Below, one piece after another: positions 31,011-36,714 of a stretch of 64,000 nt of DNA (within the stretch, counting starts at the first letter, position 1; each line of letters opens with the position of its first letter). The notes under the pieces were generated by a model, which saw only the letters and a program-made list of their open reading frames with translations, was not told the origin of the DNA and did not search any database. Made by a program: the position numbers and the translations under genes. The DNA comes from Parasphingopyxis algicola. GTDB taxonomy: Bacteria; Pseudomonadota; Alphaproteobacteria; Sphingomonadales; Sphingomonadaceae. The DNA is taken from contig NZ_CP051131.1 in NCBI RefSeq assembly GCF_013378075.1, forward strand, positions 806,001 through 870,000, in the 5' to 3' direction.

Positions 31011-31574
31011 TTAGCCGTTCGGTTCGACGATGAAGTTCGACAGGTCGTTGCGCGGCGCATCCCATTCGGGCGCCAGTTCGGTTGCTGTCAGGATATCGTT
31101 ATAGGCTGCCGTCAAATCGCCGTTCAGGTGATGGGCGAGGCCACGCCCATAATGCGCGACCGCCGGTTGTTCCGTCCCCAAATCGAGCGCGCGCGTGAAA
31201 TAGGGCAACGCCTCCTCGCCACGCTCGTCGCGCCGCATCAGGGTGATCGCCTTGTTCAGCATCGCTTCGGGCTGTTCGGGATCCATCCGGAGAGCCCGGT
31301 CGAAATCGGTAAGCGCCAGATTATACTGGCCGCGGTGGAACTGGATGATACCCCGGTTAACATAGGTTGCGATCCGGTCCCGATGGGTCAGCGCTTCTTC
31401 TTGGAGCGCGAAATCGCAGGGCCTGAGATCGCCGCGCGAATCCGATTGCCGCGCCGCTGCGGTATAGCAGGATTCCGCTGAACTGTTTCCGCTGACCAGA
31501 ACCGCGCTGTTGGCCGCGCCGGCCATAACCGTCACGGCAAGCGCGCTGGCTGCGAGTTTGAGCATCATTTGCAT
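31011..31574 (-). CDS. Exported tetratricopeptide-repeat protein A
   Basis: A 187-residue periplasmic protein. A signal peptide (ending AANSA near residue 23) is followed by a cysteine pair (ESCYTAAARQ and RPCDFAL, about residues 36 and 53) and two to three TPR-like units: DRIATYVNRGIIQFHRGQYN, PEQPEAMLNKAITLMRR and PAVAHYGRGLAHHLNG. The 34-residue units are protein-binding scaffolds. It is a paralogue of the next gene upstream. Start ATG follows AGGAGGATGCC, a strong ribosome binding site. Confidence 0.8.
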   Translation of the reverse strand: MQMMLKLAASALAVTVMAGAANSAVLVSGNSSAESCYTAAARQSDSRGDLRPCDFALQEEALTHRDRIATYVNRGIIQFHRGQYNLALTDFDRALRMDPEQPEAMLNKAITLMRRDERGEEALPYFTRALDLGTEQPAVAHYGRGLAHHLNGDLTAAYNDILTATELAPEWDAPRNDLSNFIVEPNG

Positions 31575-31704: not shown

Positions 31705-32271
31705 CTAGCCGCCCTGTCCGCCGACGACGCGGAACCGCGCCAGATCGCGGGCCGGCACATCCCATTCCGGATCGATGTCGGTGGCCCGCCGGATATCGTA
31801 ATAGGCCGACGAAATGTCTCCGTTCATCTCGTGCGCCACACCGCGTCCGTAATAGGCGAGCGCCGGTTCGCGCGTGCCATATTCGATGGCGGCGGTGAGC
31901 AGCGCCACGATCTCGGACGGGTTCTCGCGCTGGTGCAGCAGCGCCAACCCCTTGTTGAGATAGGCTTCGGGTTCGCTGCTATCGAGGTCGATTGCCCGGT
32001 CGTAATCCGCGATGGCCCGGCCATAGTCGCCGTTCTGGACATGCAATATGCCGCGATTGACATGGCTCGCGACGCGATCCCGGCCGGTGATCAGCCGATC
32101 CTCGATGGCTTGGGTGCAGACGCGAATGTCGCTGGGTCGGGACCGTTCGTTGAGCGCCGACTCATAACAGGTGCGCGCGGTGCTGTTGCCGACGACGCTG
32201 ATCGCGGCATGGGCGGTTCCGGCGGCGAAACCGGCGACGGCGAGAGCCGCGACGATGGATAATCCACGCAT
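31705..32271 (-). CDS. Exported tetratricopeptide-repeat protein B
   Basis: A 188-residue periplasmic protein paralogous to the neighbour at 31011: same length, same signal peptide style (GTAHA cleavage near residue 21), the same cysteine pair (RTCYESAL, RVCTQAIED) and matching TPR units (DRVASHVNRGILHVQNGDY, SEPEAYLNKGLALLHQ, PALAYYGRGVAHEMNG). The start at MRGLSIV is preceded by GGGAG; a longer in-frame ATG is less likely. The pair seems a tandem duplication, each copy with its own terminator. Confidence 0.8.
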   Translation of the reverse strand: MRGLSIVAALAVAGFAAGTAHAAISVVGNSTARTCYESALNERSRPSDIRVCTQAIEDRLITGRDRVASHVNRGILHVQNGDYGRAIADYDRAIDLDSSEPEAYLNKGLALLHQRENPSEIVALLTAAIEYGTREPALAYYGRGVAHEMNGDISSAYYDIRRATDIDPEWDVPARDLARFRVVGGQGG

Positions 32272-32325
32272 GGCATTTCTCCCTTTCGTGCGCGGAATAT
32301 ACGCCATTTGGCCGATTTTGGCGAA

Positions 32326-33339
32326 TCAGCCGATCATTTCGTGGCGCTTGAGCGCATGGCGCAGCTGATCATAGCTCAATCCCAATGCCTTGGCGGTCTG
32401 GCGCTGATTGTAACGCGCCCGTTCCAGCGCCGCCTCCAATATCTCTTTTTCATAATGCTCGACCGCCGCCTTGAAGTCCGAGACTACGGGCTTGCGCGGC
32501 TCGGCGGCGGGCCGTGACGGCGCGGCGGCGGTCTTCTCTTCCGCCTCCGGCTCGGGCGGTATTTGCCAGGGGGAGTCGAACGGATCGAGCTGTATGCTGT
32601 CGACAGGCTCTGCGGCCCGTTCCCAGCGATAGACCGCGCGTTCGACGACGTTGCGCAGCTCGCGGACATTGCCGGGCCAGTCATGCGCCATCAGCGCCGT
32701 TACCGCATTGTCGCCGAAGCCCGGCCAGGACGGCCAGTCCAGCTCGACCGCCATCCGCCGGCCGAAATAGTCGGCGAGGATCAGGATGTCGCTCTCCCGG
32801 ACGCGAAGCGGCGGCAGCGTGACGACTTCGAAGGAGAGACGGTCGAGCAGGTCGGCGCGGAACCGGTTGTGCTCGACCAGGCTCGGCAGGTTTTCGTTGG
32901 TCGCCGCAACGATCCGGACATCGACCCGGATTGGGGTGTTGGAACCGATCCGGCTGACCTCGCCATATTCGACCGCGCGGAGCAGGCGCTCCTGCGCGGC
33001 GGCGGAGAGAGTCGCCAACTCGTCGAGGAACAGGGTGCCGCCATCGGCCTCCTCGAACGCCCCGGCCCGGGCGCGCGTCGCGCCGGTAAAGGCGCCGGCC
33101 TCGTGGCCGAACAGCTCGGCCTCGATCAGCGTTTCGGGCAAAGCCGCGCAGTTGAGCGTGATCAGCGGACCCTCCCAGCGCTGGCTCAGGCGGTGCAGGC
33201 GTTCGGCGATCAGCTCCTTGCCCGTCCCGCGCTCGCCGATTACGAGGACCGGGCGGTCCAGCGCGGCCGCGCGGCTGGCCATCTCGACCGCATCGAGAAA
33301 GGCACCGGACTCTCCGACAAATTGGGCTTCGCGTTCCAT
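32326..33339 (-). CDS. pspF: Phage-shock sigma-54 activator PspF
   Basis: A 337-residue AAA+ enhancer-binding protein without an N-terminal sensing domain, as expected for PspF, which is held inactive by PspA. The Walker A motif is GERGTGKE near residue 36, the sigma-54 contact loop GAFTGA is intact near residue 83, Walker B is GGTLFLDE near residue 100, and a Fis-type helix-turn-helix ends the protein (NQRQTAKALGLSYDQLRHAL). A Pro/Ala/Glu-rich linker of about 45 residues separates the two, longer than in E. coli. It is divergent from the psp genes. Confidence 0.95.
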   Translation of the reverse strand: MEREAQFVGESGAFLDAVEMASRAAALDRPVLVIGERGTGKELIAERLHRLSQRWEGPLITLNCAALPETLIEAELFGHEAGAFTGATRARAGAFEEADGGTLFLDELATLSAAAQERLLRAVEYGEVSRIGSNTPIRVDVRIVAATNENLPSLVEHNRFRADLLDRLSFEVVTLPPLRVRESDILILADYFGRRMAVELDWPSWPGFGDNAVTALMAHDWPGNVRELRNVVERAVYRWERAAEPVDSIQLDPFDSPWQIPPEPEAEEKTAAAPSRPAAEPRKPVVSDFKAAVEHYEKEILEAALERARYNQRQTAKALGLSYDQLRHALKRHEMIG

Positions 33340-33348
33340 TCCGATTCT

Positions 33349-33365
33349 TTAGCGTAAAATACTAA
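33349..33365. promoter_or_regulatory. Candidate PspF upstream activating site
   Basis: TTAGCGTAAAATACTAA is a TTAG..CTAA inverted repeat resembling PspF sites. It lies about 77 bp upstream of the sigma-54 -24 element and just ahead of pspF, where one site could serve both promoters. Assignment is by resemblance only. Confidence 0.5.
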
Positions 33366-33439
33366 ACAATAGCAATATGCACCGCTCGAATTTCACTCGC
33401 GACCCGCTTAAGCACTTGTTTTTCTTGAATAATCAAAAA

Positions 33440-33456
33440 TTGGCACACTCCCTGCA
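33440..33456 (+). promoter_or_regulatory. Sigma-54 promoter of the psp operon
   Basis: TTGGCACACTCCCTGCA matches the -24/-12 pattern: GG at 33442-33443 and GC at 33454-33455 with the required 10 bp between. It lies about 80 bp before the first small gene and points toward the psp genes. PspF is divergently encoded. Confidence 0.85.
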
Positions 33457-33537
33457 ATGAATGGGACGTTAACAGTCACAACGACGATAACCCAGTTTCA
33501 AAACCCCGATTGGGGGCCAAGGTTCAGGAGACCAGAC

Positions 33538-33714
33538 ATGACCAGCATCAAAGACATCAGCCAGAACATCGCCGCCGCAATGGCCGCTCTCGCCGTCACC
33601 GGCGTCTGCGTCCTCGGAACGGTCGGCCCGGTCCAGGCCGGCAACACCGGCGAGCCGGTCGAGCTGCAGGCCGACCAGGACGAGATTATCATCGTTACCG
33701 GCCGCATCGCATAG
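33538..33714 (+). CDS. 58-residue exported peptide, first gene of the psp operon
   Basis: A small protein with a signal-like hydrophobic segment (residues about 12-32, ending VQAGN) and a short mature part of about 25 residues ending QADQDEIIIVTGRIA. The end resembles the TonB box at the start of sphingomonad TonB-dependent receptors (EIVVTG type). I do not recognise a named family. The ATG at 33538 has AGGAGAC just upstream; the longer frame from 33457 would start before the expected transcription start. It is 83 bp before pspA, with a hairpin between. Confidence 0.65.
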   Translation: MTSIKDISQNIAAAMAALAVTGVCVLGTVGPVQAGNTGEPVELQADQDEIIIVTGRIA

Positions 33715-33726
33715 GCCACCAAGTCA

Positions 33727-33769
33727 GGCCGGGGAGGCGGCTGCCCCTCCCCCTCCCCGGCCAAAAAAA
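33727..33769 (+). other. Hairpin between the small peptide gene and pspA
   Basis: An 11-bp perfect inverted repeat (33727-33737 and 33752-33762) followed by seven A residues. On the plus strand it lacks a T tract, so it is not a normal terminator; it could stabilise the upstream message or partly attenuate transcription into pspA. Confidence 0.5.
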
Positions 33770-33797
33770 TGTTCGAGGGGCATTAGGAGTAGCTACC

Positions 33798-34484
33798 ATG
33801 GGAATTTTCTCCCGCACTCGCGACATTATCGCCGCCAACGTCACCGATATTCTCGACAAGGCTGAAGATCCGGCCAAGATGGTCCGGATGATCATCCTCG
33901 AGATGGAGGAAACGCTGGTGGAAGTTCGCGCCTCCGCTGCCCGGACGATCGCCGACCAGAAGGAAATGCGCCGGTCGATCACCAAGCTCGAACAGCTCCA
34001 GGAAAGCTGGAAGGAAAAGGCCGAACTCGCGCTGTCCAAGGACCGCGAAGATCTCGCCAAGCAGGCGCTGGTCGAAAAGCAGAAGGCCGCGGACATGGCG
34101 GACCGGCTCAACGGCGAAATCGAAATCCTCGATGAATCGCTGCGAGCCTATGAACAGGACATCTCGAAGCTCCAGGGCAAGCTTCGCGAGGCCCGCAGCC
34201 GCCAGAACACCATCTCGGCCCGGCTCGAAACCGCGGAAAACCAGATCAAGCTGCGCGACCTCTACAATGGCGATCGCGTGCAGGATGCCTTTTCCCGTTT
34301 CGAAATGCTCGAACGCCATGTCGACATGGCCGAAGGCCGTGCCGATGCGCTCGCGCTGGGCAGCAACCAGCCGAAGACGCTCGAGGAAGAGATCGACGAA
34401 CTCGAAACGAGCGACAAGGTCGAAGCCGAACTCGCGGCCATGAAAAAGGCCAGCAAGAAACCCTCCGAAACCAAGGAAGCATAA
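33798..34484 (+). CDS. pspA: Phage shock protein A
   Basis: A 228-residue ESCRT-III/Vipp1-like coiled-coil protein that binds stressed membranes and inhibits PspF. It starts MGIFSRTRDIIAANVTDIL, an amphipathic helix, and has the family segment DPAKMVRMIILEMEETLVEV, followed by an almost continuous helix with LRDLYNGDRVQDAFSRFEMLERH near residue 155. The C-terminus is short. The ATG at 33798 has AGGAG 9 bases upstream. Confidence 0.97.
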   Translation: MGIFSRTRDIIAANVTDILDKAEDPAKMVRMIILEMEETLVEVRASAARTIADQKEMRRSITKLEQLQESWKEKAELALSKDREDLAKQALVEKQKAADMADRLNGEIEILDESLRAYEQDISKLQGKLREARSRQNTISARLETAENQIKLRDLYNGDRVQDAFSRFEMLERHVDMAEGRADALALGSNQPKTLEEEIDELETSDKVEAELAAMKKASKKPSETKEA

Positions 34485-34487
34485 CCC

Positions 34488-34811
34488 ATGGAAGACATCC
34501 TCGTACCCATCGGCGTCGTCGGGATGCTCTTCATCGGGCTTCCCTGGCTGATCCTCCACTACTCCACCCAGTGGAAGCGCGCCGGATCGATCACCCGGGA
34601 AGACGAAGATCTGCTGGATGAACTTTATGACGCCGCCCGGCGACTGGACGACCGGATGAACACGATCGAACGGATCATCGCCGCCGACAATCCCGAATGG
34701 GCCCGCGAACGCGCGCTGCGCCACGAGCCTCCCAGGGACGATCGGATCGAGGCGCGTATGGAAGACCGGATTGCCGAACAGGATATGAGCCGCGCCGACC
34801 GCCGGCGGTAA
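34488..34811 (+). CDS. pspB: Phage shock protein B
   Basis: A 107-residue inner-membrane protein that, with PspC, relays stress to PspA-PspF. One membrane helix covers residues 5-25 (VPIGVVGMLFIGLPWLIL), followed by HYSTQWKRAGSIT and a coiled coil with RLDDRMNTIERIIAADNPEW, the conserved PspB end motif. It then adds an unusual charged tail of about 35 residues (RHEPPRDDRIEARMEDRI). It begins 3 bp after pspA. Confidence 0.92.
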   Translation: MEDILVPIGVVGMLFIGLPWLILHYSTQWKRAGSITREDEDLLDELYDAARRLDDRMNTIERIIAADNPEWARERALRHEPPRDDRIEARMEDRIAEQDMSRADRRR

Positions 34812-34836
34812 CGAGACAAGGAACAGGAGACCGACA

Positions 34837-35214
34837 ATGCATGACCGCCGTACGAAATTCTATCTCGACAAGCAGAATGCCAAGTTTCTGGGCGTCTGTG
34901 CCGGCGTCGCCGACTATACCGGGATCGATACGCTCTGGACCCGGATCGGGTTCATGGTCACCGCGCTCTTCTTCTTCCCGCCGCTGTTCCTCGTCTATTT
35001 CATCGTCGCCTGGCTGGCTCCGAAAAAGCCGCTCGGCCTCTACGAGGACAAGGAAGAGGAGAAATTCTGGCAGGGCACCCGCGCCAATCCGCGGCGCTCG
35101 GTCAACGAGATCCGCTCGCGGTTTCGCGATGTCGATCGCCGGCTCGCCGATGTCGAGCTGATGGTGACGAGCCGCAACACGCGCCTCGCCCAGGAAATCG
35201 ACGCACTGCGCTAG
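34837..35214 (+). CDS. pspC: Phage shock protein C with a coiled-coil tail
   Basis: A 125-residue membrane protein. The PspC domain is clear: KFLGVCAGVADYTGIDTLWT near residue 17 and a membrane helix with FMVTALFFFPPLFLVYFIVAW at residues 38-60. After that comes a cytoplasmic or periplasmic tail ending RRLADVELMVTSRNTRLAQEIDALR, which matches the coiled-coil motif of the five small proteins that follow. E. coli PspC also has a leucine-rich tail, but not this motif. AGGAGACC precedes the ATG. Confidence 0.92.
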   Translation: MHDRRTKFYLDKQNAKFLGVCAGVADYTGIDTLWTRIGFMVTALFFFPPLFLVYFIVAWLAPKKPLGLYEDKEEEKFWQGTRANPRRSVNEIRSRFRDVDRRLADVELMVTSRNTRLAQEIDALR

Positions 35215-35250
35215 GGTTCGGGGCGATAAGGTTCAGGGAGGAAATATCAG

Positions 35251-35553
35251 ATGAATTGGGGAAGTCCGGTCTTTGTCTTGGCAATCGTGGGAATGAGTTT
35301 CCTCGCCTGGATCATTACGACCGCCATCCGCGCCAAACACGGCTATCCGCTGGAGAATGAATGGGGCGGATCGACCCACCGGCCAGACCCGGAGAACAAC
35401 CGCAAGATCGAATTGCTCGCCAACGAGAATGGCGAACTGAAAGACAAGATCGTCCGGCTCGAAGAGCGTATTTCGGTCCTGGAACGGATCGCGACGGACG
35501 GCAGCACACGGCTCGCGGACGAGATCGAAAACCTCCGCGACGCGGCGAAGTAG
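35251..35553 (+). CDS. PspB-like small membrane coiled-coil protein 1
   Basis: A 100-residue protein. A single membrane helix (residues 6-26) is followed by RAKHGYPLENEWGG, a juxtamembrane motif shared with the next protein, and a C-terminal coiled coil (about residues 48-98) with ERISVLERIATDGSTRLADEIENLR. That motif matches the PspB and PspC tails. I infer an inner-membrane partner of the Psp sensor; no enzyme motif is seen. The leader AAGGTTCAGGGAGG precedes the ATG. Confidence 0.8.
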   Translation: MNWGSPVFVLAIVGMSFLAWIITTAIRAKHGYPLENEWGGSTHRPDPENNRKIELLANENGELKDKIVRLEERISVLERIATDGSTRLADEIENLRDAAK

Positions 35554-35564
35554 AAAGGGAAACA

Positions 35565-35870
35565 ATGCTCGAAACACCTGCAATTGCCATCGCGCTTGTC
35601 GGATTGCTCGCCGTGGGCGGCTGGATCTTCACCACTTGGTTGCGTGTGAAGAACGGATATCCGCTCGACGGTGCTTGGGGGCAAGCTGTCTATCCGCGGA
35701 AGAACGCTGAAACCGAAGAGCGGGTGAAACTGCTCAGCCAGGAAAATGCGCAGCTGCGCGCCGAGATCGGTTCGGTCAAAGACCGACTCACCAATATCGA
35801 ACGCATCGTCACCGACGGCGGTTATGTTCTCGAGCAGGAAATCGAAAGCCTGCGCGGGAAGGCCAACTAG
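35565..35870 (+). CDS. PspB-like small membrane coiled-coil protein 2
   Basis: A 101-residue close paralogue of the preceding gene. One membrane helix (residues 6-26), then RVKNGYPLDGAWGQ in the same place, then a coiled coil with LLSQENAQLRAEIGSVKDR and DRLTNIERIVTDGGYVLEQE. It lies 11 bp downstream of the previous stop and has AAAGGGAAAC before the ATG. The pairing of the GYPL motif suggests direct duplication of gene 1. Confidence 0.8.
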   Translation: MLETPAIAIALVGLLAVGGWIFTTWLRVKNGYPLDGAWGQAVYPRKNAETEERVKLLSQENAQLRAEIGSVKDRLTNIERIVTDGGYVLEQEIESLRGKAN

Positions 35871-35881
35871 GAGAGATCGTG

Positions 35882-36151
35882 ATGGACTTGGAGCTGATGG
35901 GCATTTTGCTGATGACGGTCGTCTTCCCGATCTGCGCCGTCACCTTCTGGATATTCGGCGGCAAATGGTTCGAGCTCCGCAAGACCGAAGCCGAAGCCAA
36001 TGCCAGGATGGCAGCGGAAAGTGCCGCGCAATATGCGGCGAAGACCGAGCGGCTCGAACAGCGGGTCGCCACATTGGAGCGAATCCTCACGGATCGCTCG
36101 ACGAATTTGAGCGACGAGATCGAAAATCTGCGGGACAAACCGCTTAACTAG
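35882..36151 (+). CDS. PspB-like small membrane coiled-coil protein 3
   Basis: An 89-residue protein with an N-terminal membrane helix (residues 5-27, LMGILLMTVVFPICAVTFWI), a linker GGKWFELRKTEAEANARM and a coiled coil with EQRVATLERILTDRSTNLSDE. The KWFELRKTEAE linker recalls bona fide PspB more than proteins 1 and 2 do. The ATG at 35882 is preceded by GGAGAG; an overlapping GTG one codon upstream is possible. Confidence 0.78.
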   Translation: MDLELMGILLMTVVFPICAVTFWIFGGKWFELRKTEAEANARMAAESAAQYAAKTERLEQRVATLERILTDRSTNLSDEIENLRDKPLN

Positions 36152-36178
36152 ACACGAACAAGGTTCAGGGAGGTAATT

Positions 36179-36436
36179 ATGGGTCCGTTTGAAATGGTCG
36201 TTGCGATCGTTCTGATCACCGCGATCGCCGGCGTTATGCGCGCCAGATACAAGGCCGGAATCATTGAGGACGAAAACGGCGTCGAACGTCGGATCGTGGA
36301 TCCGGACGCGGGGCGCATGCGCGAGGAAATCAAACAGCTGAAGGAGCGGATCGCCGTTCTCGAGCGGATCGCGACCGACAAGGGCAATCGGCTCGAACAG
36401 GAAATCGAAGCTCTGCGCGACAGTACGCATAGCTAG
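36179..36436 (+). CDS. PspB-like small membrane coiled-coil protein 4
   Basis: An 85-residue protein. A short membrane helix (residues 4-20) is followed by a charged segment (RARYKAGIIEDENGVERRIV) and the coiled coil KERIAVLERIATDKGNRLEQE. Its tail is almost identical in pattern to protein 1. The leader AAGGTTCAGGGAGG is repeated before its ATG, and the spacing from the previous stop is 27 bp. Confidence 0.78.
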   Translation: MGPFEMVVAIVLITAIAGVMRARYKAGIIEDENGVERRIVDPDAGRMREEIKQLKERIAVLERIATDKGNRLEQEIEALRDSTHS

Positions 36437-36471
36437 AAGAAGAACAAGGTTCAGGAAAGAAAGGTATAATC

Positions 36472-36714
36472 ATGCAGGATCAGATACCGACTTTAGCCAT
36501 TGCGGCGACCGGATTGATCGGGCTGATAATCGCCAGCTACGCGGGCCTGAGGGGGTGGCGCGGATGGCTGGAACTGAAGCGGCTCGAACTCCAGCAAAAA
36601 GCGGCAATGTCCGGCGATGTGCCGGCGCCGAGCACCGGATCGCGGATCGAGGTCGCCGACCTCAAGGAACGGGTCCGCAAGCTGGAGGCGATCGCCGCCG
36701 GCATCGAACTTTAA
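36472..36714 (+). CDS. PspB-like small membrane coiled-coil protein 5 (shortened motif)
   Basis: An 80-residue protein with a membrane helix at residues 8-26 (LAIAATGLIGLIIASYAGL), a basic linker (RGWRGWLELKRLELQQK) and a truncated coiled coil ending DLKERVRKLEAIAAGIEL, so the last third of the shared motif is missing. The leader AAGGTTCAGGAA precedes the ATG. It is the last gene of the psp set; a double hairpin follows. Confidence 0.75.
   Translation: MQDQIPTLAIAATGLIGLIIASYAGLRGWRGWLELKRLELQQKAAMSGDVPAPSTGSRIEVADLKERVRKLEAIAAGIEL

Follow-up and report, generated by a model that had tools for sequence, protein, structure and literature searches.

In the phage shock protein (psp) system, PspA inhibits PspF, and in the silent state the tail of PspC pairs with PspB. 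An exchange of PspB and PspA on the PspC tail of Yersinia was reportedly described by Flores-Kim and Darwin in 2015. Once the Yersinia system is in the on state, PspA is bound by the C-terminal domain of PspC (PMC5596341). Residues 40-119 of E. coli PspC (PspC40-119), which comprise one membrane segment and the tail, likewise bind PspA and, when overexpressed, turn on psp without PspB and without loss of the proton motive force, and a leucine-zipper mutation in the PspC tail leads to loss of PspA binding (PMC3068692). Here, we analyzed 64,000 nucleotides (nt) of the genome of Parasphingopyxis algicola (Sphingomonadaceae), hereafter the window, in which pspA, pspB and pspC are followed on the plus strand by five small genes (s1-s5), as an initial annotation of this DNA had indicated (Table 1). 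Like PspD and PspG of Enterobacteria, s1-s5 are small accessory proteins in a PspF regulon; similarity to PspD or PspG at the sequence level was not detected, no search having been aimed at it. We propose, with a probability of roughly 0.55, that s1-s4 are PspF-induced membrane anchors with PspC-type docking tails, which join the partner exchange among PspA, PspB and PspC and reinforce PspA recruitment.

Extra small psp genes as such are not new, because the 'PspB duplicates' that Ravi et al. 2024 (PMC11237479) mention for pspFABC operons, in one phrase of the text available and with AOL22920.1 as example, probably cover part of them; judged by this description, they and s1-s5 are probably in part the same phenomenon. 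The same text also mentions a 'divergent PspB' fused to PspC. The distribution of such genes is not described in the available part of that paper, and neither there nor in the other literature examined, as far as its text was available, were the PspC identity of the tail, ancient classes, co-loss with pspA or cases of a split PspC found. A 2022 survey (PMC9239133) treats PspA and PspC paralogues, with nothing on an array of small proteins in the available part, and a literature search for psp in Sphingomonadaceae yielded nothing specific.

The PspC-type tail of the small proteins

The initial annotation took s1-s5 for PspB-like copies, four of which share a long C-terminal motif with PspB. A PspB-like build is indeed present: the small proteins are of PspB size (70-110 amino acids, aa), have one N-terminal membrane helix (modelled in s1 and judged by sequence in s2-s5), share the ER[IL] half of the tail with PspB, and are encoded in the same operon. 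However, none of them exceeded the cut-offs of the PspB models. For s3, 19.3 of the required 25.6 bits were obtained with Pfam PF06667 and 27.7 of 51.7 with NCBIfam TIGR02976, s1 reached 12.8 of 51.7 bits with TIGR02976, and s2, s4 and s5 were not listed. Searches of Pfam and NCBIfam as a whole gave no match of s1-s5 over a curated cut-off; placement in unrelated families, which the initial annotation had named as speaking against it, did not arise, as no curated family claims these proteins.

The tail separates s1-s4 from PspB. PspB proteins end soon after ER[IL] with a DNPEW-type sequence, whereas s1-s4 run on with TDx4L..EIE.LR, a stretch missing from all 80 PspB sequences compared. In the 107-residue PspB of the window, the first-half motif R..[IV]ER[IL] occupies residues 57-72, and almost every column from the T-D on is missing. 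The protein that does end with the full motif is PspC, which had been overlooked: R..[LVI]E..[TVS][DS]x4L..EI[DE].LR lies in its last 35 residues (RLADVELMVTSRNTRLAQEIDALR), reaches the final column of TIGR02978, the model for PspC, and is common to s1-s4. The long motif assigned to four of the small proteins was thus recovered, with four instead of five residues between T-D and the conserved L, and s5 forms a separate class that, as annotated, carries the first half only (RVRKLEAIAAGIEL). Subthreshold matches of s1-s4 to TIGR02978 start at columns 73-86 and all finish at the last column, 121 of 121 (s2, columns 73-121; s3, columns 77-121); s5 fails in this comparison. Unlike PspC, s1-s4 lack the head domain PF04024, for which no match was found in s1-s5, have one membrane helix of their own sequence and occur in several copies. 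PspB duplication was therefore rejected as a sufficient description on the grounds of the cut-offs and the tail columns.

A pattern scan with the relaxed long motif in six frames of the window yielded five occurrences, representing s1, s2, s3, s4 and the PspC tail, and s1-s4 and the PspC tail alone were matched by the family profile in the whole 3.67 Mb genome (E<=0.001). In a small BLAST comparison the PspC tail matched s4, s3, s1 and s2 with E values of 1e-5 to 2e-4. Profile-profile comparison with the PspC tail gave probabilities of 92-96% over 37-39 columns for s1-s4 and 4% for s5; the comparison with PspB gave 84-96% over 22-53 columns, mostly in the first half. The 81 loci supplied 307 small proteins and 80-81 sequences each of PspC and PspB, which were compared column by column. 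Common to small tails and PspC tails are R53, E58, L68, E71, I72, L75 and R76, which are kept in 77-80 of 80 PspC tails; among the approximately 307 small proteins, E71 is present in 202 (Q in 89), R76 in 286 and every other shared column in at least 194. PspB shares R53, E58, R59 and I/L60 with the small tails and lacks essentially all of their columns from 63 on. The small tail thus reads as a PspB-type first half joined to a PspC-type second half, and the full motif is that of PspC.

In the sequences of s1-s5, a single N-terminal hydrophobic stretch is followed by a charged, coiled-coil-like tail, which agrees with the architecture first assigned to them. The AlphaFold monomer of s1 shows a membrane helix (6-30) and a long helix (47-99) with a mean pLDDT (predicted local distance difference test) of 73.3; the PspC model was poor (55). 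Relatives in the PDB were not found for PspC, and s1 matched generic coiled coils only. The heads differ far more than the tails, with identities between classes of 17% and 46%, respectively, and those of s1 and s2 have a conserved juxtamembrane motif, [HN]GYPL(E/D)..WG. The short amphipathic tails, the moderate confidence of the s1 model, the poor PspC model and the generic PDB matches would fit unrelated small membrane proteins near psp that merely share heptads. However, on 20,990 open reading frames (1.5 Mb) and up to E=1, the small-tail profile detected three s5 in addition to small proteins, PspC and PspB, and the PspC-tail profile detected PspC, 260 small proteins and one PspB; nothing else was matched by either. 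By this background search a chance coiled-coil similarity was ruled out. As non-heptad positions such as T-D are conserved as well, only the psp operon was matched in the whole genome and the array is co-lost with pspA (see below), we regard a generic resemblance as highly improbable.

Distribution, age and separation of heads and tails

A mixed-profile search of 200 Sphingomonadaceae genomes detected relatives in 191 of them, with 1-9 matches per genome, sometimes including the PspC tail itself. The pspA gene was present in 192 of the 200. The co-occurrence with pspA that the initial annotation had asked about was clearly evident: pspA and the array occurred together in 191 genomes, neither in 8 (five genera), pspA alone in 1 and the array alone in none, the 200 genomes not being independent of one another. 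The absence of both pspA and the array from five genera is nevertheless consistent with this co-occurrence.

Leaving s5 aside, the 81 loci differed in their count of small genes, with none in 2 loci, one in 11, two in 5, three in 13, four in 21, five in 17, six in 7, seven in 4 and eight in 1. Such variation from 0 to 8 copies with a constant tail would be expected of effector scaffolds, that is, anchors that tile PspA or protect the membrane themselves like PspG or PspBC, with a copy number following the membrane type and no regulation of PspF. Regulatory and protective roles of PspBC are indeed separable (PMC5596341). Nevertheless, scaffolding would leave the retention of ancient classes with distinct heads unexplained, and we consider it unlikely.

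Fifteen genomes contributed 83 proteins to a tree in which these classes were evident: s1, s2, s4 and s5, and nearly also s3, formed classes common to several genera (7 label changes compared to a minimum of 5 and a shuffled mean of 51), although few columns were available and the deep forks are unresolved. As proposed at the outset, the operon thus holds several diverged copies. Since the classes are shared across genera, the array is older than much of the Sphingomonadaceae, and a recent tandem duplication in the P. algicola genome was ruled out on the same grounds. Gene conversion or concerted evolution of the tails was also rejected: cross-class tail identity was 0.462 within and 0.458 between genomes, showing no excess. 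The ratio of nonsynonymous to synonymous polymorphism (pN/pS) in nine Parasphingopyxis loci was 0.25-0.42 for s1-s5 and 0.16-0.35 for pspA, pspB and pspC; s1-s5 are under purifying selection in this genus.

Natural separation of the PspC head from its tail was observed in several genomes. In one (G459; 40 contigs, estimated 100% complete), the psp operon consists of pspA, a PspC that ends after the head, and s3-like and s4-like proteins. PspB was not found anywhere in this genome at E<=0.1, pspF (over cut-off) lies at another place, and a sigma54 site with one mismatch precedes pspA. The second-best match of the PspC model was the s4-like protein, covering columns 52-121 of 121. At two loci (L057, L060), a tail protein comes after a second PspC that has no tail. 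The extended psp operon of another alphaproteobacterial family (L085, L086) encodes two single-helix proteins behind pspC, one with the PspC tail and one with the PspB tail. An extra low-scoring PspC occurs in L032, L047 and L095, that of L095 being a 65-residue head without tail.

In the same order outside the Sphingomonadaceae, single unlinked copies were detected, two of them directly behind an rpoD-like gene. These stand-alone tail proteins (L058:4396-4668 and L061:4212-4484) lie 22-34 nt behind the gene, judged by sequence to be rpoD-like, which suggests co-transcription with the housekeeping sigma factor. One other alphaproteobacterial family has relatives as pairs or singles, several gammaproteobacterial families have 1-3 scattered stand-alone copies in varied neighbourhoods (L112-L126), and in most other sampled Alphaproteobacteria PspB itself was the only match. 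A further protein with the same tail, located off the psp locus of another Sphingomonadaceae genome (L084:4704-5117), has N-terminal CxxC pairs resembling a zinc ribbon and no obvious membrane helix.

Operon structure and neighbouring features

As read from the sequence, the locus has the features of a PspF regulon, with a sigma54 promoter, a divergent pspF and a continuous operon, which bears out the assignment of s1-s5 to the psp operon (Table 1). The gaps between the genes from pspA through s5 measure 3-36 nt. The promoter is the sole sigma54 site with <=1 mismatch on both strands of the 64 kb, compared to 0.004 sites expected by shuffling in the pspF-pspA gap. Among the 81 loci, such a site was found 5' of pspA in 78, and a divergent pspF in 79. 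Within the operon, neither a sigma70-type promoter-like site nor an Rfam match was detected.

Table 1. Features of the psp locus of P. algicola, with positions in the window (SH-aLRT, Shimodaira-Hasegawa-like approximate likelihood ratio test; branch values refer to this test)
Feature	Position	Strand	Remarks
pspF, sigma54 enhancer-binding activator	32326..33339	-	TIGR02974 484.5 bits (cut-off 443.55); divergent from operon
sigma54 -24/-12 promoter TGGCACACTCCCTGCA (predicted)	33441..33456	+	<=1 mismatch; precedes psp operon
spORF, 58 aa, exported-looking	33538..33714	+	between sigma54 promoter and pspA; first gene of the operon within the genus
pspA	33798..34484	+	TIGR02977 270 bits, over cut-off
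pspB	34488..34811	+	TIGR02976 80.7 bits, PF06667 87.7 bits; both over cut-off
pspC	34837..35214	+	TIGR02978 116.5 bits, over cut-off; PF04024 62 bits
s1, 100 aa	35251..35553	+	juxtamembrane KHGYPLE-WGG motif; PspC-type tail; SH-aLRT 96; pN/pS 0.25
s2, 101 aa	35565..35870	+	sister class of s1 (KNGYPLD-WG); PspC-type tail; s1+s2 branch 96, s2 83
s3, 89 aa	35882..36151	+	PspC-type tail; of s1-s5 nearest to PspB (TIGR02976 E 2.5e-6, below cut-off)
s4, 85 aa	36179..36436	+	PspC-type tail; class branch 96; penultimate gene where s5 occurs
s5, 80 aa	36472..36714	+	last gene; first half of motif alone; class branch 99; in 71/81 loci

The small gene spORF, which has no Pfam or NCBIfam match, was found 5' of pspA in eight of the nine genus loci, the ninth being truncated by a contig end. 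Paralogues of spORF precede a second pspA locus. In the P. algicola genome this second operon (L079, C1:3534500-3545500) has its own sigma54 site (TGGCACGGCTTCTGCA) and contains spORF, a paralogue of pspA and a protein that resembles PspC but has a shortened tail; a duplicated spORF with a pspA fragment lies upstream, and a comparable locus is present in L080. A leader element, GGTTCAGG, is located at 33521, 35230, 36162 and 36448, directly 5' of spORF, s1, s4 and s5. Within the genus the element is present before s1 and s4 in 9/9 loci and never before pspA, pspB, pspC, s2 or s3, and is perhaps an extended ribosome-binding site. The gene 118 nt downstream of the array resembles sufE, judging from its sequence. 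Downstream of pspF, two neighbouring paralogous exported proteins with repeats like those of tetratricopeptide-repeat proteins are encoded on the minus strand (31011-31574 and 31705-32307), which have a common S.NS(T/S)A..CY motif behind the signal peptide.

A possible role in PspA recruitment

Because s1-s4 have the same architecture as PspC40-119 and belong to the same operon, we infer that they present PspA-docking tails, although PspC40-119 was engineered and overexpressed, whereas s1-s4 occur naturally and are unrelated to it in their membrane segment and juxtamembrane region. Under stress, PspF would be freed and the operon transcribed, yielding many single-helix anchors alongside PspA, PspB and PspC. 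Each anchor would show a PspC-type, PspA-binding tail in the cytoplasm, supplementing or replacing that of PspC, and would dock PspA on the membrane away from PspF, by which the response would be sustained. The anchors would also multiply the attachment sites for a PspA coat, and their diverse heads would set the location, partner or insult for each of them. The tails may bind PspA, PspB or PspC, with a presumably positive effect, and the heads may sense different things. The cell may thus make many interchangeable PspA docking points rather than one.

Several findings weigh against this proposal. Tails by themselves need not signal, since E. coli PspC40-119 at low level did not support induction by stress (PMC3068692). 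In s5 the second half is absent, and one genome (G467) has pspFABC without the array, its operon stopping after pspC. Use of the tail is not confined to psp operons, since stand-alone relatives occur far from psp genes in other families and in Gammaproteobacteria. Finally, s1-s4 have E-R-[IV] where PspB does and where PspC has an aromatic or other residue, so that they could equally pair with the PspC tail in the manner of PspB.

This last point leads to the main rival explanation, in which the small proteins are brakes: PspB-like caps that pair with the PspC tail or return PspA to PspF, resulting in a higher threshold and in shut-off after induction by negative feedback. Besides E-R-I at columns 58-60, the profile comparison with PspB and the match of s3 to the PspB model (Table 1) argue for such caps. 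The PspC-diagnostic second half, however, is conserved as strongly as the first, and G459 retains small proteins though the PspC tail to be capped is lost; we therefore find a function as brakes rather doubtful. A wider reading than PspA-docking anchors is put forward tentatively. PspC would be split into heads and tails of a modular stress receptor, in which alternative heads, each with its own membrane segment and juxtamembrane motif (e.g., KHGYPLE-WGG), share a PspA-docking tail, different insults converge on PspA, and PspF-driven synthesis of tails results in a self-sustaining on state. A hetero-oligomeric sensor with different inputs, as suggested in the initial annotation, is possible, and diverse heads on uniform tails would fit it.

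It has long been asked how PspB and PspC transfer the signal from the membrane to PspA, and the PspC tail has mainly been studied within one two-gene pair in Enterobacteria. The analysis provides a correct name for an unannotated family that is liable to be labelled 'PspB duplicates' and that has scattered relatives in Gammaproteobacteria. The Sphingomonadaceae represent a natural domain-swap experiment, with up to eight heads on one conserved tail and a genome with a tail-less PspC. Whether the tail is sufficient for PspA recruitment and whether the heads set the stimulus are now directly testable questions.

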